64,000 nt of DNA, taken from positions 1 through 64,000 of the forward strand of contig JAFGLH010000128.1 of the NCBI GenBank assembly GCA_016928165.1, in the 5' to 3' direction. The notes under the pieces are model-generated. The model did not search any database. It had not been told where the DNA came from and was given only the letters and a program-made list of their open reading frames with translations. Below, piece by piece: positions 13,545-52,432 of the stretch. The position numbers and the translations under genes are program-made. The DNA is from Pirellulales bacterium (GTDB lineage Bacteria; Planctomycetota; Planctomycetia; Pirellulales; Thermoguttaceae). Position 1 is the stretch's first letter. Each line of letters starts with the position of its first letter.

Positions 13545-16500
13545 TCAGCAGTCGTTTGCTTGGCCCGTCGCAGCCATGCTTGGCTCCGCTTGGACCTTCC
13601 GATCGGAAACAAACCGCTCGAGCTCCTGGGCCATCACGTCGACGGCGTATCGAATCTGCTTTTCGGTGTGCGCCGCCGAAATAAAGTATCTCAGCCGGGC
13701 CGCGTTCTCTTCGACGGCCGGATGGATGATCGGCTGAACGTTCACGCCTCGCAAAAACATCGCCTTGGACAGTTGCAAGCAAAGAATCGAGTTGCCCAGG
13801 ATAACCGGCACCACCGGCGTGTCCTTGCTGCTGCCGGTGTTCAATCCGTTCCGTTTGGCCAGATCGAGGAACAGCCGCGAGTTTTCCCGCAGTTGCGAGA
13901 CCCGATCGGGTTCATTCCGCAACAGCCGCAACGAGGTCAGGGCCGCAGCGGCGGAAGCGGGCGGAATGGCCGCCGCGAAAACGAAGCCGGGCGCCGTGTA
14001 GCGAAGATAGTCGGCCAGCGCCTTGCAGCCGGCGATATAGCCGCCGCAACTTCCAATGCTTTTGCTCAACGTTCCCATCCATATATCGACGTCCTCGGCG
14101 GGAACGCCGAAGTGTTCGCCGATGCCGCGGCCCGTGGCGCCCAATATCCCCAAGGAATGCGCCTCGTCGATCATCAACAGGGCCTTGTGGCGCTTCTTTA
14201 ATTCGATGAACTTGGGCAACTCGGGGATGTCGCCGTCCATGCTGTAGACGCCCTCGATCGCCACCAATACGCGCCGGTATTCGTGGCGATACTGTTCGAG
14301 CAGCTTGTCGGCCGCCCGCCAATCGTTGTGTGGGAAAGGCCGTCGCCGCGCCCCGGAAAGAATGCAACCCTGCACGATGCTGTTGTGGGCCAGGGAATCG
14401 TGAAGGATCAAGTCGCCGGGGCCGAACATGTGGCCGATGACCGATTCGTTGGTGGCGTGGCCGCCGACAAAGGCAACGGTGTCCTCGGTCCCCAAAAAGC
14501 TCGATATTTCCCGCTCCAACTCGACGTGGATCAATTTCTGTCCGGAGACCACACGGCTTGCCGAAGCGCTGGTGCCGTAGCGGTCGATGGCCTCCTTTGC
14601 GGCTTGGTTGACCGCCGGATCGCCCGAGAAACCGAGGTAGTTGTAGCTGGAGAAATTGATGTATTGCTTGCCGCCGATGATCGTCGTGTCCCGCGCCGGT
14701 CCGTCGTGCGCCATGAAGAACGGGTTGCCCGTTCCCGTGGCTTCGAGCATGTCGAGGCTATCCCGCAGTCGAACGTATTCGGGGAACAGGTCGAAGCGAT
14801 GCGTTGGCTCGGGTATTTCTCCGTCGGCCGGCCGCGTGCTGGCCGGACGCGGCTCGATGCCTAGATACTTCTCCACGGCCGCGACGAGTTGCCGGGTGGT
14901 CTCCAGTTCGGGAAGCACTTCTTCGGGAAACCGCCCGCCAAACTTGTCTTCCAACGAGGCTAATATCTCCATCCTCTCCAAAGAATCCATACCGGTCTCG
15001 ACGATCGGCGAATCGAGCGTCATGCCGTCGGCGCGTTCCTTCGCCACGCGGCGGATTTCTTCAACCACAAGTTCGGTTAAACGGTGACCGGCCGGGATTT
15101 TTTCCACGACGGCGGGACGTTCGTCCTGAGGTTGGAACGACGGCTCTGTAGCAGAGGTGTCTTTTCGAGTTGTTTTTCGTTTTCGTGTTCCAGTGGGCGC
15201 CGAAGCGGCTAGTCTTCGCCCCTCGCCCCTCGCCCCTAGTCCCTCGCTCCCCAGCCCTCGTCCATCGTCAATCCAACGACCGACCACATTCAAGGTTTTG
15301 GCTAAGAACCCCTCGCGACAGGCGTGTCTCTGAATTTTTCCGCTGGATGTCTTGGGAATGCTGCCTGCTTTCAACAATAATATCTCGGCGGGAACCAACT
15401 CGTGTTCCACGGCCACGGCCCGTCGCACGGCGTCGAAGACTTCATCGAAGTTTGATCGTTTGTGCCGTTCGATTTCCTGAACAACGATAAGCCGCTCGAT
15501 GCTGTTCATTTCCACGACGAAGGCCGCTCCGCCGTCGAGGCGCAGCCGGGGGTGGCTCTGCTGTACGGAAAGCTCGATGTCTTGCGGATAGTAGTTCACT
15601 CCGCGGACGATAAGCAGGTCTTTTAGCCGGCCGGTTACGTAAAGTTCCCCGTCTCTAATGAATCCCAAGTCGCCTGTCCGCAGAAAAGGCCCCTCGCCAC
15701 TGTCGGCCAACCTGGCACGGAAAACCTGCTCGGTGGCTTTTTCTTGCATCCAATATCCCTGCGCGACGCTCGGACCTTGGACCCAAATCTCACCGATCCG
15801 ACCGGGCGAACAGGGGATTCGAGTCTCTGGATCGACGATTTCGATTCGCTGGTCGGGAAGGTTTTCACCGCAACCGACTAATTCCCTGCCGGCCGGATCG
15901 TCCGGTTCGACGGGGACCGCTTCGTTTCGGGAGAGCCCCTCGGCTTCGAAGGAATTGATTATCGGTTGCTTGTGGACGAACCCGCCGGAGACGATCAATG
16001 TTGCCTCGGCCAGTCCGAAGCATGGATAGAACGCTTCCCGGCGAAAACCGCAAGGGGCAAACACCTCGGCGAAAGTTTCGAGCGTTTCCGCCCGCACCGG
16101 CTCCGCCCCGTTGAAGGCCACACGCCAACTGCTCAAGTCAAGTTTTTTTCGTTGTTCAGACGTGACCTTGCGGATGCAGTGCTCGTAGGCGAAGTTCGGT
16201 CCTCCGCTGGTGCTGCCGCGATATTTGGTAATCGCCGCGAGCCAACGATACGGCTTCTGCAAAAAACTCATCGGGGAAATCAGCACGTTCGGCCGGCCGA
16301 CGTACAGCGGCTGAAGGATGCCCCCAATCAACCCCATGTCGTGGTAGCTGGGCAACCAAAACACGCCCGTGCCCGAGCGGGTATGCTCAAAGGAGTATGA
16401 AATCAGCGCAGAGTTGTGGACGAGGTTGGCATGGTTTAGCACTACCCCCTTCGGCGTGCCGGTCGAGCCGGAGGTATATTGTAAGAAAGCCAACGTATCG

Positions 16501-17006
16501 CCGTGGACGTCGGGCATTGTCCAATCGACGGCCGTCTCGGCCGAAACCCGACAAGTGGGCAGCCAGGCAAGCTGCTTGAGATGGGGGGTTTGGTCAATTA
16601 GGGGCATAACCCGGCTCAATACTGAATCGGTCGTCAGCGCCACCCGTGCCTCGGCGTCGTCGGCGATCGCCTGTATGCGATTCAGCGATCGGTTTCGGCG
16701 GGGGGGGTAGACGGGCACGGCGATCACGCCCGCGTAAAGGCACCCAAAAAAGGCGGCGATGAACTCCAGACCGGCCGGATAGAGCAACAAGGCCCGTTGC
16801 CCCACCAGATCGTGCGATTCGAGCCATGCGCCGATCGCCCGTGCCTGACGGTCGAGTTCCCTGTAAGTCAGAGAGATTTCTTCGTTCTCGCCGTCGACCA
16901 GGTACGTGAAGGCGATGTCAGTCGGCTGGCACCGCGCGCGATGCAGCAACAGTTCCACTAGGTTGGAAGGGCCGAAAAACGTCCCAGGCAAAGAATCCAG
17001 ATGCAC
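13545..17006 (-). CDS. Fatty acyl-AMP ligase - acyl carrier protein - alpha-oxoamine synthase (AONS/SPT-like PLP enzyme) fusion
   Basis: 1153 aa; FAAL motif [40 protein letters not shown]; PLP-enzyme motifs [17 protein letters not shown] and catalytic-Lys [16 protein letters not shown]. Confidence 0.88.
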   Translation of the reverse strand: [1153 protein letters not shown]

Positions 17007-43727: not shown

Positions 43728-45611
43728 TCAGCATTCTGTGTCGGGGAAAATCATCGCCTCGGCGAACTCGCGGGCGAAATCCGCGTCGGTGGAAAGGTCG
43801 ACGTGCTCAGCCCGTCGGGCAAGCTCCTCGGCCGCGTCGCGGGCGCGTCGCGAAAGCGCCGCAAGCCGCGCCCCGGAAAGCGAGGTGTTGCCCATGAAGC
43901 GGATGCGACTCCGCTCGACTTCCAGCGGCAGCAACCCGATCCTCTGCGCATTCCGTCGGCGGATGAAATTGCCAAACCCCCCACCGAGCAGCACCAGCTG
44001 TAAATCTTCCGGTCTCAAACCGGCGCGGCGCAGCAGAATCGAAATTCCGGCGCGGATCGCCCCGGCGGCGAGCTGCAATTCTCGTATGTCCCGTTGCGTC
44101 AGCGTGATCGGCCGTTGGTCGGCCGACTCTCCTTCATCGACAAGCAGGAACGAAACCTGGCCTTGATGCATAACGATTCTTCGGGCCATGTCGGGCAAAA
44201 CGTTCGATGGCAATTGATCGGGAGTTCGCAGCCTGCCGGCGCAATCGAGTGCCCCGTGGCGGAGCATTTCGGCCGCCGCGTCGATTAGACCCGAGCCGCA
44301 GATTCCCATTGGCGGGACGTCGCCGATGACGTTGATCATAAGGCGGCCGTTGAAGACGACTTTTTCGATGGCGCCCGCCCCGCCGCGCATTCCACGCGAG
44401 ATTCTCGCCCCCTCGAAAGCGGGGCCGGCGGCGGTCGAAGCGGCCGTCAGCTTGCCATCGGCCAGCAACACGATCTCGCCGTTAGTGCCGATGTCGACGA
44501 ACAAAGCGGCCCCCTCGACATTGGCCAAATCGGTGGCAAGCATTCCGGCAACGGTGTCGCCGCCGACAAACCCGCCGATCACAGGCATTACGTAAGCGCT
44601 TCCACGGGGATGAATGTGCAGTCCGAGTTTCTCCGCGGGGCAAGAAACGCCCCGGCCGCCGGCCGGCACGAAAGGGACCTCCCCCAACGGTCTGGGATCG
44701 ACGCCGCAGAACAATTGCTGCATGGTTGTGTTGCCGGCGAGGGACAACTCGTAGACCCTTTGACGCGGCACCCCGGCCTCGCCGCACAAGTCGCCGATCA
44801 TCTCGTCGACTGCCGATACGACCGACTGACGCAGACGAGCGAGTCCGTCCATTTTTTCACGGGCAAAGAGGATTCGCGAGAGGACGTCGTCGCCGACCTG
44901 GGTTTGAGGGTTTAGCCGGGCGGTCGTCGCCCACTCGCTGCCGGTGGCCAGGTCGGTCAACTGACCGGCTAGAGTCGTGGTGCCTAGATCCACAGCCACG
45001 GCAAAGGCATCGTCCTCGGTGTTGCCGATCTCGAAGTCGAGCAACCGCTCATCGTCGAAGACGGCGGTGCCGCGAAAGTCGGCCTCTCTGAGCCGGGCGG
45101 AAATTTCCCGCAGCAGCGATAAGCTCATAGTCAGCGGCCCGACGCCCAATGCACTCTCCAAACGGAGCGCATCGGGCACGTCGTCGCCGCGCGTGGGAGG
45201 AGCAAGTTCGACGTATTTTTTCCGCACGAGCGGATCGTCCCTAGTAAACGGTTCCAAACCCTTTTTTCCCCCTCTTCCTTGATAGCTGACGAGTATTTTC
45301 TGATCGAGCGTGGCATGCGAAGCCGAGGGGATTTCAATCTCCAGCGGACGTTGGACGGTCGATTGACAAGCCAACCGCCAGCCAGAGCGGAGTTCCTCAT
45401 CGGAAAACCACTTGCGTTCAACTGCGGTCGGATCGGAGGCGCCCGAGGCCACGATCAGCCGGCATTTTCCGCAAGTGCCCTCTCCGCCGCAAGGCAAGTC
45501 GATCATCAGCCCCGCCTCGGCCGCCGCTTCAACCAACCGTGTTCCGGGCAATACGAAAGCCTCTCGACCGGACGGCCGAAAACGTACCGATACTTCTCGA
45601 TCTCGCGTCAT
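43728..45611 (-). CDS. RACo-like [2Fe-2S]/ASKHA (DUF4445) corrinoid-activation type protein
   Basis: N-terminal plant-type ferredoxin CGGEGTCGKC...LACQS; AVAVDLGTTTLAGQLTDLATG; ELSLAGNTTMQQLFCGVDPRPLGEVPF; LFVDIGTNGEIVLL; GICGSGLIDAAAEM; VLLGGGFGNFIRRRNA. Confidence 0.88.
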   Translation of the reverse strand: MTRDREVSVRFRPSGREAFVLPGTRLVEAAAEAGLMIDLPCGGEGTCGKCRLIVASGASDPTAVERKWFSDEELRSGWRLACQSTVQRPLEIEIPSASHATLDQKILVSYQGRGGKKGLEPFTRDDPLVRKKYVELAPPTRGDDVPDALRLESALGVGPLTMSLSLLREISARLREADFRGTAVFDDERLLDFEIGNTEDDAFAVAVDLGTTTLAGQLTDLATGSEWATTARLNPQTQVGDDVLSRILFAREKMDGLARLRQSVVSAVDEMIGDLCGEAGVPRQRVYELSLAGNTTMQQLFCGVDPRPLGEVPFVPAGGRGVSCPAEKLGLHIHPRGSAYVMPVIGGFVGGDTVAGMLATDLANVEGAALFVDIGTNGEIVLLADGKLTAASTAAGPAFEGARISRGMRGGAGAIEKVVFNGRLMINVIGDVPPMGICGSGLIDAAAEMLRHGALDCAGRLRTPDQLPSNVLPDMARRIVMHQGQVSFLLVDEGESADQRPITLTQRDIRELQLAAGAIRAGISILLRRAGLRPEDLQLVLLGGGFGNFIRRRNAQRIGLLPLEVERSRIRFMGNTSLSGARLAALSRRARDAAEELARRAEHVDLSTDADFAREFAEAMIFPDTEC

Positions 45612-46724: not shown

Positions 46725-48077
46725 ATGAGCGACGATTGGTATTTGAAACGTCTGTCCGAGTATAGCGGCCGTACCGCTTTGGTATGGAGGGAAAAACAAT
46801 ACGGTTACGACGATTTCCTCGCTCGCGTCGATGGATGGCGTGATGAGCTTTCCGGGCGGGGAATTGCACCGGGACAGTGCGTCGCCTTGCGGGGCGGTTT
46901 TTCGCCCGCCACGGCCGCCTTGATGACTGCGTTGGCCGTCAATCGGAACGTCGCGGTTCCTTTGACGACTAGAGTGCGCGAGGAGCGCGAGAAGGCCCTA
47001 AAAATAGCCGCCGTCAGATGGTTCGTCGAATTCGATCGCGACGACGGGTGGGAAATCACGCCGCTCGAACCGATACTCGATCCGCCTCTGCTGTGGGAAC
47101 TCCGCGAAGCGGGAGAAGCTGGGTTGATCGTCTTTTCCTCCGGTTCGACCGGAGAGATAAAGGCGTCGCTGCTGAGTTTTACGCGGATGTTGGACGGCTA
47201 CCGCAACCGCCGGGCGACGCCGCTGCGGACGCTCGCTTTCCTGATGCTCGATCACGTCGGAGGTATCAACACGCTGTTTCATATTCTCATCGGCGGCGGA
47301 ACGATTATTACCATTGCCGAGCGGTCGCCCGAGGCCATCTGCAAAGGGATCGAGCGCCATCGAGTGCAACTGCTGCCTACCACGCCCACCTTCCTGCGGA
47401 TGTTGCTGATTTCCGAATCCCACAAGAAGTATGACCTCAGTTCATTGGAGGTAATAACCTACGGCACCGAGCCGATGCCCGAGGCGACGCTGAAAGAGCT
47501 TCATGCCGCCTTGCCCGGCGTGAGGTTGAAGCAGACTTATGGGCTGACAGAAGTGGGCATACTGCCGACGAAGTCCGAGAGAAACGATTCGCTATGGTTG
47601 GCCGTCGGCGGCAAGGGATTCGAGACGAAAATTGTTGACGGAGTTCTTTGGATCCGCTCGAAAACCGCGATGCTCGGCTACCTCAATGCCTCCTCGCCGT
47701 TCGACGCCGAGGGCTGGATGAACACCGGCGACCTGGTCGAGCGACAGGGCGATTATATCCGCTTCCTCGGCCGCAAGTCGGAGATCATCAACATCGGCGG
47801 CGAGAAGGTCTTTCCCGCCGAAGTTGAAAACGTGATCCTGCAACTGGACAATATCAAGGAGGTGACTGTCCGCGGCCGCTCGAACCCGATCACCGGCGGA
47901 GTGGTGGTTGCCACGGTCGAGTTACACCGGCCGGAGGATCACTCCGCGTTGGAGAAGCGAATCCGCGCCGCCTGCCGCGCGCGGTTGGCCCCGTTCAAAG
48001 TTCCGGCGATGGTCGTGGTGACCTCGGAGGCGCTTTGCGGAGAACGTTTCAAGAAAAAGAGAAAAGTTGGAATGTAA
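46725..48077 (+). CDS. ANL superfamily AMP-binding acyl-activating enzyme
   Basis: LIVFSSGSTGEIKASLLSFTRM; QTYGLTEVGILPT; EGWMNTGDLVERQGDYIRFLGRKSEIINIGGEKVFPAEVENVI; FKKKRKVGM C-terminus. Confidence 0.88.
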   Translation: MSDDWYLKRLSEYSGRTALVWREKQYGYDDFLARVDGWRDELSGRGIAPGQCVALRGGFSPATAALMTALAVNRNVAVPLTTRVREEREKALKIAAVRWFVEFDRDDGWEITPLEPILDPPLLWELREAGEAGLIVFSSGSTGEIKASLLSFTRMLDGYRNRRATPLRTLAFLMLDHVGGINTLFHILIGGGTIITIAERSPEAICKGIERHRVQLLPTTPTFLRMLLISESHKKYDLSSLEVITYGTEPMPEATLKELHAALPGVRLKQTYGLTEVGILPTKSERNDSLWLAVGGKGFETKIVDGVLWIRSKTAMLGYLNASSPFDAEGWMNTGDLVERQGDYIRFLGRKSEIINIGGEKVFPAEVENVILQLDNIKEVTVRGRSNPITGGVVVATVELHRPEDHSALEKRIRAACRARLAPFKVPAMVVVTSEALCGERFKKKRKVGM

Positions 48078-48146: not shown

Positions 48147-48902
48147 TTGATGAAAAACGAAATCCAAACCGCTCGACCCGTGGCCGTCGTCAGCGGCGGC
48201 AGCCGGGGACTGGGGCAGGCGATAGTAACCGAGTTGATGCTGCACGGCTTGACCGTGGCCACGTTCAGCCGCTCTAAGACGCCGTTCGTGGATGAACAAA
48301 CCGCGGCCGACCCGCAGGCCAAACGTTTCCGCTGGGAATCGCTCGACGGGGCCGACGCTCAGGCGTTGGCCGGCTTCGCCCGCGGAGTGCTGCAACGTTA
48401 CGGCCGGATCGACGCCTTGGTGAACAATATGGCAACGCTCGGCGACGGACTGTTGACGATGATGCGCGACGCCGACATCCACCGCCAAGTTAGCATGAAC
48501 CTCGAGTCGGCGATATTTCTCACGCGCGCCTGCCTGAAAGGAATGTTGCCGCAAGGATCCGGTTCGATCGTTAACATATCGTCGGTCAACGCGCTGCGGG
48601 GGCATAAAGGCGTGTCGATCTACAGCGCCACGAAGGCCGCCTTGATCGGGCTGACCAAGAGCCTGGCCGTCGAGGTCGGGCCGGCCGGCATCCGCGTCAA
48701 CTGCGTGGCCCCGGGCTATTTCTCCAGCGACATGACCGCCGCATTCACCGACGAGCAACGGGCGCGGATTGCCCGGCGCACGCCGTTGAAGAGGCTCGGC
48801 ACGGTCGAGGACATCGCCAAGGCGGTTTGGTTCCTCCTTTCGCCCGAGTCGTCCTTCATCACCGCGCAGGTAATCGCCGTGGACGGAGGATTTGTGGGAT
48901 AA
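48147..48902 (+). CDS. SDR family oxidoreductase (3-oxoacyl-ACP reductase-like)
   Basis: VAVVSGGSRGLGQAIV; NNMATLGDG; NISSVNALRGHKGVSIYSATKAALIGLTKSLAVEVGPAGIRVNCVAPGYF. Confidence 0.92.
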   Translation: MMKNEIQTARPVAVVSGGSRGLGQAIVTELMLHGLTVATFSRSKTPFVDEQTAADPQAKRFRWESLDGADAQALAGFARGVLQRYGRIDALVNNMATLGDGLLTMMRDADIHRQVSMNLESAIFLTRACLKGMLPQGSGSIVNISSVNALRGHKGVSIYSATKAALIGLTKSLAVEVGPAGIRVNCVAPGYFSSDMTAAFTDEQRARIARRTPLKRLGTVEDIAKAVWFLLSPESSFITAQVIAVDGGFVG

Positions 48903-48910
48903 ATTAAATG

Positions 48911-48987
48911 TAGGTCAGGTACCCCGTACCTGACATTGAACCGGAAATAAATCAAAATGCACGTCAGGTACGGGGTACCTGACCTAC
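48911..48987. repeat. REPIN-like pair of inverted hairpin modules (GTAGGTCAGGTAC family)
   Basis: GTAGGTCAGGTACCCCGTACCTGACAT ... CGTCAGGTACGGGGTACCTGACCTAC. Confidence 0.8.
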
Positions 48988-49004: not shown

Positions 49005-49370
49005 ATGGAAAACCTCAAAGAAAAAATCCTCGGCGTGGTCCTCGACGTGGCGCAAGAAAACTCGCCGCAACTAGAGGCCGTTCGCCCCGACCAAATGCTG
49101 GTCGAAGACCTCGGTCTGCGATCGCTCGATCTGGCCCGGATCGTCGCCAAGCTGGAAATGGTCCTGGGCGTCGACCCGTTCGCCGAATTGGTGGCGGTGA
49201 CGAGCATCCGCACGCCGGGCGACCTTATTGATGCGTACTCGAAGTGTTTTACCGGCGAAGGGGAATCGGCCGAGGGGTCGGAGTCGGAATCCGAAGGCGC
49301 GTCCGCTCCGCGTCAAAGGAGCGGACTGGCCTCTCAACGTGATTTAAGAAAACAATCGCGCGGAGAATAA
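49005..49370 (+). CDS. Acyl carrier protein
   Basis: MENLKEKILGVVLDVAQENSPQLEAVRPDQMLVEDLGLRSLDLARIVAKLEMVLGVDPF; candidate phosphopantetheine Ser in GLRSLDL. Confidence 0.82.
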   Translation: MENLKEKILGVVLDVAQENSPQLEAVRPDQMLVEDLGLRSLDLARIVAKLEMVLGVDPFAELVAVTSIRTPGDLIDAYSKCFTGEGESAEGSESESEGASAPRQRSGLASQRDLRKQSRGE

Positions 49371-49387
49371 TCGACGAGACCAACCGC

Positions 49388-52300
49388 ATGAACGACTCAA
49401 TTATATCCAACTCGATCGCCATTATCGGCATGGCCGGACGTTTTCCGGGCGCCCGGAACGTCGATCAGTTTTGGTCGAATGTTGTCGCGGGAGTCGAGTC
49501 GATCACGTCGCTGACGAACGAAGAAATGCTGCAATCCGGGGCCGATCCGTCGTGGCTAAACCGGCCCGACTTCGTCAAGGCGGCCCCGGTGATCGACGAT
49601 TTCGACAAGTTCGATCCGAAGTTCTTCAAAATTTCCCGCCGCGAAGCGGAGATCATGGACCCGCAGCAGCGGATCCTGCTCGAACTGGCCTGGGAGACGA
49701 TGGAGCGGGCCGGATACGCCGGCGATCCACCCGGCTTGGTTGGCGTCTTCACCGGCGCAGGCGGATTGATGAGCAGCTATCTGCTTTCGCCCATGCACTT
49801 TTACTCGCGGTTGATCGGCTCGACTGGCAGCATGCACTGCGCGGGCAACGACAAGGATTATTTGAGCACGCGGATTTCCTACAAGCTGAACCTCCGCGGG
49901 CCGAGCTTTACCGTTCAATCGGCCTGCTCGACCTCGCTGGTGACGGTGCATCTGGCTTGTCAAAGCCTACTGGCCGGCGAGTGCGACATGGCCCTGGCAG
50001 GCGGCGTGACGGTCCGCGTTCCGCACCGGATCGGCTACATCCACACGGGCCAGGCGTTGCTCTCGCCCGACGGCCATTGTCGCCCCTTCGACGCCGGCGC
50101 CAACGGTACCGTCTTCGGCAGCGGCGCCGGTCTGGTGTTGCTCAAGCCGCTGGCCCAGGCGATCAAAGACGGCGACCACGTTCACGCAGTCATCCGCGGC
50201 TCGGCCGTAAACAACGACGGCGCCGCCAAGCTGAGCTATTGGGCCACCAACGCCGAGGGCCAGGCAGCCGCTTGCGCCGACGCAATGGCCGTGGCCGAGG
50301 TCGAGCCGCGCTCGATCGGATTAGTCGAAGCACACGGGACCGCCACCGCCATGGGCGATCCGGTGGAAATCTTCGGATTGAACAAAGCCTTCCGCCGTGG
50401 AACGAAGGATAAGCAGTTCTGCGCCATCGGCTCGGTCAAAAGCAACTTCGGACACCTGGAGGCCGCCGCCGGAATTGCCAGCCTGATAAAGGCCGCGCTG
50501 GCCCTGGAACACAAAAAGTTGCCGCCGAGCATCAATTACCACGAGTCTAATCCGGCGATCAATTTCCCCGAGTCGCCCTTTTTCGTCATTACGGAGTGCC
50601 GCGATTGGCCCTCGAACGGCCAACCGCGCCGAGCGGCGGTCAATTCCCTGGGGATCGGCGGCACGAACGCGCACGTGATTTTGGAAGAAAAGTTATTTTC
50701 CCCTCTCCCGCAAGCGGGAGAGGGGCCGGGAGTGAGGGCGGCTGAACTCAAAACGATTTCCACATTACATTCCCACGCTCTCGCCATTTCCGCCCAGACG
50801 CCGACGGCGTTGAACGAACTGGCCGGCCGATACGTTGAATACTTCGACGCTAATCCCAATTCCAACCTGGGCGACGTCTGCTTTACGACTAACACTGGTC
50901 GGGGACGCTTCCAACATCGTTTATCCGCCGTCGTCCGGTCGACGAACGAAGCCCGCAAATTCCTGGACGCTTGGCGGCAAGACAAGTCCGCCCCGGGCTG
51001 CGTCCATGGAATCGTCGATGTGATAAATCCGCCTGTCACGTTCCTGTTCCCCGGCGAAGGTTCGCAATACGCCGGCATGGGACGGGGACTATACGAGTCC
51101 GAACCCGTCTTCCGCGAAAACATCGACCGCTGCGGAACAATCCTTAAATCCTCTCCATTGGAGGGCGAAGCGGATTTCCAGACGGCCCTGTTTGCCTTGG
51201 AATACTCTCTGGCCTGCTTGTGGAAATCGTGGGGCGTAGAGCCGGCGGCGGTCATCGGTCACGGGTTGGGCGAGTACGCGGCCGCCACCGTCGCTGGCGT
51301 GTTCTCGCTCGAAGACGCCCTGCGATTGGTCTCCGCCAGGGAAAAACTGATCAACTCGCTTCTAAACGAGGGCAGAATGGCGGTTGTGTTGGCCGAGCCG
51401 GCCCGAGTGGCTGAAATGTTGAAGTCCTACGACGACATTTATCTCGCGGCCGTCAATAGTCCGCGGCAAACGGTCGTTTCGGGCCGCGCTGAGGCGATTG
51501 AATCACTTACCGACCATTTGACCGCCGAAGGGCTTCGCTGCCGGCTGCTGCCGGGCAAAAGAGCATTGTACTGCCCGTTGGTCGAGCCGATCGTCGAACG
51601 ATTCCGCTGCGTTTGCGAGAAAGTAACGTTCCACAAACCGCGGATTGAGATAATCTCGGGTCTTTCCGGGAGCCAGGCCGGCGCGGAGATCGCCACGGCG
51701 GATTACTGGCACAGGCATCTTTGCAAACTGATCCGTTTCGCCGAGTGCGTAGCAACGCTCGATCAATCTGACCACCGCGTTTTCGTTGAGATCGGTCCCC
51801 GGCCGTTATTGTTGGGGCTTGGCCGCCGCTCAATGCGGCAATGGGAAGGGTTGTGGTTGCCGAGCCTCAAACCGGGGCAACCGGACCGGCGGACGATGCT
51901 CTCCGCCGCGGCGCGGCTCTTCGTGCGGGGCATAAACATGAATTGGGCCGGAGCGGACCGCGGATTCGCCCGACGGCGGATTGTTCTGCCCACTTATCCT
52001 TTCCAACGCAAAAAATATTGGATCGAACCGATGTCAGTCATTAAACAAGAACTTAAAGGTGAAGTCCGCGTCCTTACGATCGAACCCGCTCGATTAGTTG
52101 ACTCGGAAACTATCGACCAGTGCTACCGCGAAATCGCCGCCGCGCTGGACAAATGCGAGGAAAACCACGTCGTGTTGAACTTTAGCCGGGTCGGCTTCAT
52201 GTCCTCGATGGCGCTGGGGATGTTGGTACGGGTAAACAAGCGGTGCAAGGAGTACAAGGTATCGCTTAAACTCAGCGGCATCGCCTCGGAAATCCGCGAG

Positions 52301-52432
52301 GTGTTCAAGATCACCGGCATGGACAAGCTGTTCGAGATCCATTCCGACGCGGAAGCGGCCATTGCCTCGCTGAAGTCGGGCGGAGGGATGTTCTTCCGCA
52401 AGAAGAAGCCCGCCAGCTACGAAGTCTCTTAG
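49388..52432 (+). CDS. Type I PKS-like protein: ketosynthase - degenerate acyltransferase - C-terminal STAS domain
   Basis: KS SACSTSLVTVH, VEAHGTATAMGDPVEI, GSVKSNFGHLEAAAG; AT-like FLFPGEGSQYAGMGRGLY, VIGHGLGEYAAATVAGVFSLEDAL; STAS-like KCEENHVVLNFSRVGFMSSMALGMLVRVNKRCKEYKVSLKLSGIASEIREVFKITGMDKLFEIHSD. Confidence 0.9.
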   Translation: MNDSIISNSIAIIGMAGRFPGARNVDQFWSNVVAGVESITSLTNEEMLQSGADPSWLNRPDFVKAAPVIDDFDKFDPKFFKISRREAEIMDPQQRILLELAWETMERAGYAGDPPGLVGVFTGAGGLMSSYLLSPMHFYSRLIGSTGSMHCAGNDKDYLSTRISYKLNLRGPSFTVQSACSTSLVTVHLACQSLLAGECDMALAGGVTVRVPHRIGYIHTGQALLSPDGHCRPFDAGANGTVFGSGAGLVLLKPLAQAIKDGDHVHAVIRGSAVNNDGAAKLSYWATNAEGQAAACADAMAVAEVEPRSIGLVEAHGTATAMGDPVEIFGLNKAFRRGTKDKQFCAIGSVKSNFGHLEAAAGIASLIKAALALEHKKLPPSINYHESNPAINFPESPFFVITECRDWPSNGQPRRAAVNSLGIGGTNAHVILEEKLFSPLPQAGEGPGVRAAELKTISTLHSHALAISAQTPTALNELAGRYVEYFDANPNSNLGDVCFTTNTGRGRFQHRLSAVVRSTNEARKFLDAWRQDKSAPGCVHGIVDVINPPVTFLFPGEGSQYAGMGRGLYESEPVFRENIDRCGTILKSSPLEGEADFQTALFALEYSLACLWKSWGVEPAAVIGHGLGEYAAATVAGVFSLEDALRLVSAREKLINSLLNEGRMAVVLAEPARVAEMLKSYDDIYLAAVNSPRQTVVSGRAEAIESLTDHLTAEGLRCRLLPGKRALYCPLVEPIVERFRCVCEKVTFHKPRIEIISGLSGSQAGAEIATADYWHRHLCKLIRFAECVATLDQSDHRVFVEIGPRPLLLGLGRRSMRQWEGLWLPSLKPGQPDRRTMLSAAARLFVRGINMNWAGADRGFARRRIVLPTYPFQRKKYWIEPMSVIKQELKGEVRVLTIEPARLVDSETIDQCYREIAAALDKCEENHVVLNFSRVGFMSSMALGMLVRVNKRCKEYKVSLKLSGIASEIREVFKITGMDKLFEIHSDAEAAIASLKSGGGMFFRKKKPASYEVS
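50700..50725. repeat. CCCCTCTCCCGCAAGCGGGAGAGGGG hairpin repeat inside the PKS CDS
   Basis: Translates in frame as (F)SPLPQAGEGPGVRA; related intergenic copy at 26475-26500. Confidence 0.85.

Follow-up and report, generated by a model that had tools for sequence, protein, structure and literature searches.

Loss of the acyltransferase catalytic pair and fusion to a STAS domain in a ketosynthase-acyltransferase protein of a Pirellulales bacterium

A ketosynthase (KS)-acyltransferase (AT) protein that has lost both catalytic residues of its AT domain, and that carries a STAS domain behind the post-AT linker, is encoded at positions 49388..52432 of the window, the whole stretch of 64,000 nucleotides of Pirellulales bacterium DNA that was analysed (features lie on the forward strand unless stated otherwise). 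This KS-AT(dead)-STAS protein of 1014 aa was delimited by Pfam and by its orthologues in two genomes of the same genus and one of another genus. A cis-AT module has a KS with Cys-His-His, an AT with the catalytic Ser (GHSxG) and His, and an ACP within the same polypeptide; the window protein has the first, but carries Gly626 and Tyr728 at the two AT positions, and after its post-AT linker comes the STAS domain, the ACP being a separate gene. By sequence and AlphaFold it corresponds to an inactive AT (AT0), an AT fold without its catalytic residues, and at sequence level, given the lost dyad, it agrees with a trans-AT PKS in having no functional cis AT. Its STAS domain has, by alignment, a phosphorylatable residue (PF01740; Ser940 at the SpoIIAA site). 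For these reasons it is classed here as a STAS-fused KS with an inactive AT that is probably loaded in trans.

The Pfam matches on the 1014-aa protein extend over aa 8-384 for the KS (with linker models reaching to approximately 532), 551-850 for the AT and 890-990 for the STAS domain; no cis ACP, DH, KR or TE was found by Pfam. The full KS domain (aa 8-434; 49409..50689) was defined by PF00109/PF02801, by its motifs and by its dN/dS of 0.08. An earlier note, made from the sequence alone, had described the Cys and the two His motifs of the KS as intact, and all three residues were read in the sequence: Cys180 (ACSTS; 49925-49927), His316 (HGT; 50333-50335) and His356 (GHLEA; 50453-50455). Both the KS and the AT sequences resemble those of cis-AT proteins, and their closest matches are KS-AT proteins. 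The post-AT linker (PTYPFQRKKYWIEP; 51938..52030) is conserved in the alignment to the orthologues; its stretch PTYPFQRKKYWIE is retained and the STAS domain starts at an internal Met right behind it.

The KS-AT linker is hypervariable and contains, in frame, a perfect copy of a 24-nt palindromic repeat (CCCTCTCCCGCAAGCGGGAGAGGG; 50701..50724, not assigned to a strand), present in about 123 copies in the genome at up to 2 mismatches. Other repeat-like insertions (AQPPSAVQS..., RENPFSPGVHAG...) occupy the same spot in the sister species, so that the linker seems to be a place where such sequences can land and are tolerated.

The AT domain (aa 551-850; 51038..51937; PF00698, 191 bits, and AlphaFold pLDDT) appears to be catalytically dead. 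As the earlier note had read it, the nucleophile motif is GHGLGE (51257-51274), with a GGG codon at 51263-51265 that places Gly626 where the homologous ATs have the nucleophilic Ser of GHSxG, and the motif of the catalytic His is LYCPLVEP (51566-51589), with a TAC codon at 51569-51571 for Tyr728. This Tyr is followed by Cys729 in place of Ser (51569..51574 for the two residues), and the four residues that end with it have changed from HAFH to RALY. In the oxyanion loop, Glu557 (51056..51058) replaces the Gln of GQGSQ, giving GEGSQ in all three members of the genus; Gln is found in 104/130 ATs. Aligned with the KS-AT structure of CurL (PDB 4mz0), a check that the earlier note had proposed together with a survey of homologues, both motifs fell without gaps on GHSVGE and HAFHSRL. 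As a rule, AT catalysis takes place at a Ser/His site resembling that of serine proteases (PMC11907408).

The survey covered 130 homologous ATs, drawn from genomes of the order and from 80 named loci in many phyla; 126 of these ATs lie outside the clade. The catalytic Ser and His were each present in 126/126 of the ATs of other lineages and missing in the clade only, where the double replacement (Ser to Gly, His to Tyr) also occurs in two sister species. Thirty-three AT columns were conserved in at least 95% of the 126 ATs, and at 28 of these no clade member differed. The other five columns were the catalytic Ser, the catalytic His, the Ser after this His (now Cys), a Val replaced by Ile, and one Pro, altered in the window protein only. 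Two columns conserved at 100% were lost by the clade, and these are the catalytic pair. Taken together, these counts indicate that catalysis was lost selectively and that the remaining AT signature was retained. We infer that this AT does not transfer malonyl. The malonyl-binding Arg was also retained in the genus in the 130-AT alignment; a pure scaffold would not need this residue, which therefore counts against a scaffold reading.

Full-length orthologues of 76-77% identity were found in two sister species, G001 (JAUWPQ, CSMAG_2480) and G002 (JAUWNG, CSMAG_2418). Both agree with the window protein in the STAS fusion and in the replacement residues Gly, Tyr, Cys and Glu, and the codon of Gly626 differs synonymously among the species (GGG vs GGC). 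The loss of the dyad is neither due to chance nor a sequencing error, since Ser and His occur in all 126 other ATs and the same replacements are specified by other synonymous codons in two further MAGs. The dN/dS values of the window protein versus its sisters were 0.08 for the KS, 0.18-0.21 for the AT and 0.16-0.21 for the STAS domain, showing that the AT is constrained, less strongly than the KS. The open frames are complete in four genomes. A loss of 16 AT residues (17 in one alignment) relative to the sister species, near aa 587-596 (SSPLEGEAD; 51146..51175), was found in the window copy only.

The AT fold of the window protein is confidently predicted to be intact. AlphaFold gave pLDDT values of about 85-98 per 10-residue block across most of the domain, with 71 at the deletion site, about 94-98 at the nucleophile elbow and mostly above 90 in the ferredoxin-like subdomain; the best PDB match of the model was the KS-AT didomain CurL 4mz0. 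The STAS part was modelled at about 60-80 and its placement is not trustworthy. No other Ser or Cys was found in the sequence of the AT elbow, which in the predicted fold is occupied by Gly.

A further-eroded relative was found in another genus of the family. This genome, G052 (JAJFUI), has the same operon with a KS-AT-STAS protein of 902 residues, 78% identical to the window protein in the KS and 63% in the STAS domain. At the nucleophile motif it has GKDAGE, and a deletion has removed the segment that comprises the His motif and the ferredoxin-like subdomain. The alpha/beta core of its AT is still predicted by AlphaFold to fold, mostly with good confidence, and OzmQ KS1 (4oqj), from an AT-less system, was the third-best Foldseek match of the model (TMt 0.88). 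G052 is a later stage of AT erosion beside the genus that has lost the dyad only. Around one operon there is thus a graded series, from an active AT (in Nostoc, see below), through a full fold without the catalytic pair (three species of one genus), to an AT that lacks the His subdomain (in another genus). The origin of trans-loaded PKSs from self-loading ones is usually rebuilt from distant end points, and the window protein may be regarded as a natural snapshot of a PKS losing its own loading step. The proposal of the earlier note that a non-catalytic AT-like fold is kept as a scaffold, with the extender provided in trans, gains support from the selective loss of the dyad, the purifying selection, the predicted intact fold with no Ser at the elbow, and the subdomain loss in G052 with the KS kept.

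The STAS fusion is more surprising than the AT loss. The STAS domain (52031..52432) begins at internal Met882, directly behind the post-AT linker, and was identified by PF01740 (56 bits), by alignment to SpoIIAA and by its stand-alone relatives. Compared with SpoIIAA (1th8; E 1.3e-7), Ser940 (52205-52207) aligns with the phosphoserine position, and the D-S-S-G motif is here S-S-M-A. Stand-alone STAS genes of other genera, 54-59% identical, start at a Met equivalent to Met882 and share its C-terminal tail, which suggests that such a gene became fused at the point where a PKS would go on to its reductive domains; the origin of the domain would accordingly be a stand-alone gene of the anti-sigma-antagonist type. 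KS-STAS fusions were found in four genomes only among 119 family genomes, 397 order genomes and 80 named loci, and the idea of a wider set of such fusions was abandoned. A search of open-licence papers gave no precedent for a PKS fused to a STAS domain, which, given that scope, is weak evidence of novelty.

Conserved Ser/Thr phosphorylation regulates the STAS domains of SpoIIAA, RsbR and RsbS (PMC7367683). In the window protein the domain would most likely serve in phospho-regulation or protein docking. A complex of STAS and ACP has reportedly been described for the transporter YchM (YchM/DauA). If the STAS domain gates the KS or docks a carrier protein, a domain of stress and sporulation signalling would be linked directly to a condensing enzyme. 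The idea that the fused STAS domain marks a partner-switch operon was rejected, as the operon has no kinase or phosphatase gene. The sole strong RsbW/SpoIIAB-type kinase of the genome lies elsewhere (C235; G000:C235:6715-7677), adjoining a separate STAS gene; the two are a candidate partner-switch pair, and the kinase could also act on the fused STAS domain.

The gene order of the operon was also found in Nostoc sp. CHAB 5715 (L092), with identities of 57% for the ligase, 54% for the SDR, 42% for the ACP and 59% for the KS. The Nostoc PKS is KS-AT-DH-KR with an intact AT dyad, no STAS domain was found within the 1711 aa covered, and the STAS domain of the window protein occupies the position where DH-KR follows in Nostoc. 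The Nostoc PKS as direct sister of the clade was rejected: the KS tree, which is rough and was built without a set of trans-AT reference KSs, gives this no support (bootstrap not fully settled), and a long-branched KS from Ruegeria joins the clade at 97/89. Since Nostoc is not the sister in this tree, a replacement of ancestral DH-KR by STAS is probable at best and the exact ancestral architecture uncertain.

The first gene of the operon codes for an AMP-forming acyl ligase of 450 aa (46725..48077; PF00501/PF13193; orthologues in the same gene order), identical at 82% to that of G001, 71-73% to that of G052 and 57% to that of Nostoc sp. CHAB 5715. It is followed by a FabG-like SDR ketoreductase (48147..48902; PF13561, TIGR01830), in the same operon position in G001, G052 and Nostoc, and by a discrete ACP (49005..49370) assigned by alignment to orthologues and a weak match to an ACP model, with no Pfam match. 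The order ligase, SDR, ACP, KS-AT-STAS is common to the window, G001 and G052; in G002 the contig ends at the ACP. The candidate phosphopantetheine residue of the ACP is Ser40 (49122-49124) in LGLRSLDL, where Arg stands in place of the Asp of DSL, so that loading of this ACP is not assured; the same Arg is present in G001 and G052, and Nostoc has Ser.

Only two PF00698 proteins were found in the genome: the AT of the KS-AT-STAS protein, and a FabD in which both the Ser (GLSLGE) and the His (AFHTEIM) are intact. This FabD, encoded outside the operon, is a candidate for the discrete malonyl transferase that a trans-AT PKS would use, and with the operon ACP it makes malonyl supply in trans possible. 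The genome is a draft MAG of 269 contigs, 88.5% complete, and a further discrete AT could therefore be missing from the assembly.

Several other features were observed around these genes. The interval between the SDR gene and the ACP gene holds an exact inverted repeat of 25 nt (GTAGGTCAGGTACCCCGTACCTGAC with its reverse complement) enclosing about 28 bases (48910-48987), possibly a mobile palindromic element or a hairpin. Just upstream of the operon, beside a LysR regulator, lies a gene for a RACo/AcsV-like corrinoid activation protein (43728-45611, reverse strand), and a second acyl-activating synthase of the window is a 1153-aa fusion of AMP-ligase, carrier protein and class I/II aminotransferase (13545-17006, reverse strand). 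In another genus of the family (loci L061 (G119), L059 and L060) a related ligase (45-47%) occurs with an SDR and a small acidic, possibly carrier, protein. The neighbours of this trio, identified from sequence only, are membrane O-acyltransferase-like genes (L060, L061) and a KAS III-like gene (L059). This suggests that ligase, SDR and carrier form a cassette for acyl supply that can be reused, perhaps in the acylation of polysaccharides; the acyl-transfer and membrane O-acyltransferase-like genes of L059-L061 did not settle the product of the window operon.

The reading that we consider probable is that of a condensing enzyme that descends from a type I PKS module of the cis-AT kind, with an equipped KS and an AT that is a structural remnant. 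The dead AT, together with a STAS domain in place of the reducing domains, suggests that the building blocks are probably loaded by another enzyme. The acyl ligase would probably activate a starter acid onto the discrete ACP, the ACP would receive malonyl in trans, with FabD the likeliest enzyme to load it, the KS would condense the ligase-loaded starter with malonyl-ACP, and the FabG-like SDR would reduce the beta-keto product; FabD loading, starter and product are what we infer. The AT body without the Ser-His dyad may support the KS together with the KS-AT and post-AT linkers. In cis-AT PKSs, KS, linker and AT jointly form docking surfaces for ACP (PMC6164871), which offers a reason for retaining a dead AT body. 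The C-terminal STAS domain, gained where DH-KR would follow, most likely exerts control by phosphorylation or protein docking. A more far-reaching version, which we regard as rather doubtful, would make KS-AT0-STAS a new class of condensing enzyme, in which the role of carrier protein or of control has passed from the AT and reductive domains to the STAS domain, and partner switching by phosphorylation of Ser940 would gate a polyketide/fatty-acid condensation or recruit (malonyl-)ACP in trans.

The AT could be dead and the extender not needed, the KS acting as an acyl-ACP transferase, a decarboxylase or a starter-priming enzyme, or the whole protein as a STAS-controlled scaffold. The lack of cis ACP, DH, KR and TE, the small operon of four genes and the atypical RSL motif of the ACP would fit this, but the Cys-His-His of the KS is intact in the most conserved part of the protein (dN/dS 0.08), an SDR ketoreductase suited to a beta-keto product is in the operon wherever the contig reaches, and FabD can supply malonyl-ACP; we judge this explanation unlikely. 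That the AT still transfers an acyl group by other chemistry or another residue, for instance Cys729 beside Tyr728, is very improbable: the three species share Cys729 and Arg651 and 28/33 conserved columns are kept, but one AT whose dyad is intact likewise has Cys at position 729. An alternative nucleophile at the elbow was rejected, because the sequence offers no other Ser or Cys there, where a confidently predicted fold has Gly, and G052 does without the region altogether.

Decay and error bear on the substitutions themselves. A pseudogene whose substitutions are drift might explain the 16-residue deletion and the linker palindrome of the window copy, as well as an AT dN/dS above that of the KS; against it stand reading frames that are open throughout in four genomes, a dN/dS that is low for each domain, and identical substitutions across species with 28/33 key AT columns unchanged. 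We find this explanation scarcely credible, and it was rejected on dN/dS and the orthologues. An error of sequencing or assembly, which a draft MAG in 269 contigs might invite, has a negligible probability, as the same residues appear in other MAGs with different synonymous codons and the same KS-STAS fusion in another genus; the orthologues refute it.

Dead ATs and trans loading are already known; what is new here is the double loss fixed in a clade, the graded erosion and the STAS fusion. CurL (PDB 4mz0) has KS, KS-AT linker, AT and post-AT linker in the same order as the window protein; unlike it, CurL has an intact dyad (GHS/HAFHS), and only in the window protein does a STAS domain stand behind the post-AT linker. 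The Nostoc sp. CHAB 5715 operon shares the order ligase-SDR-ACP-PKS, but its PKS continues from an intact AT to DH and KR, where the window protein has a dead AT and then STAS. The AT of irumamycin PKS module 12, in the accessible part of the source, shows the same change of GHS to GHG and is interpreted there as an inactive domain whose role is purely structural, a complete loss of activity upon this mutation being cited (PMC11672594); it is an assembly-line domain compensated by a neighbouring module, and that part describes the Ser loss, with no mention of His loss or STAS fusion. Like the KSs of trans-AT (AT-less) PKSs, such as OzmQ (4oqj), the window KS would work without a competent cis AT; it differs in that its AT is nearly complete, the operon has no dedicated discrete AT and malonyl would come from FabD. 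The STAS domain matches SpoIIAA-type anti-sigma factor antagonists, with Ser at the phosphoserine position, but is fused to a PKS, has S-S-M-A for D-S-S-G, and its cognate kinase is only a candidate. YchM/DauA (Babu 2010, Structure 18:1450) reportedly gives a precedent for a STAS domain binding ACP, in an SLC26-type transporter, whereas the window STAS is SpoIIAA-like and its binding to ACP is hypothetical.
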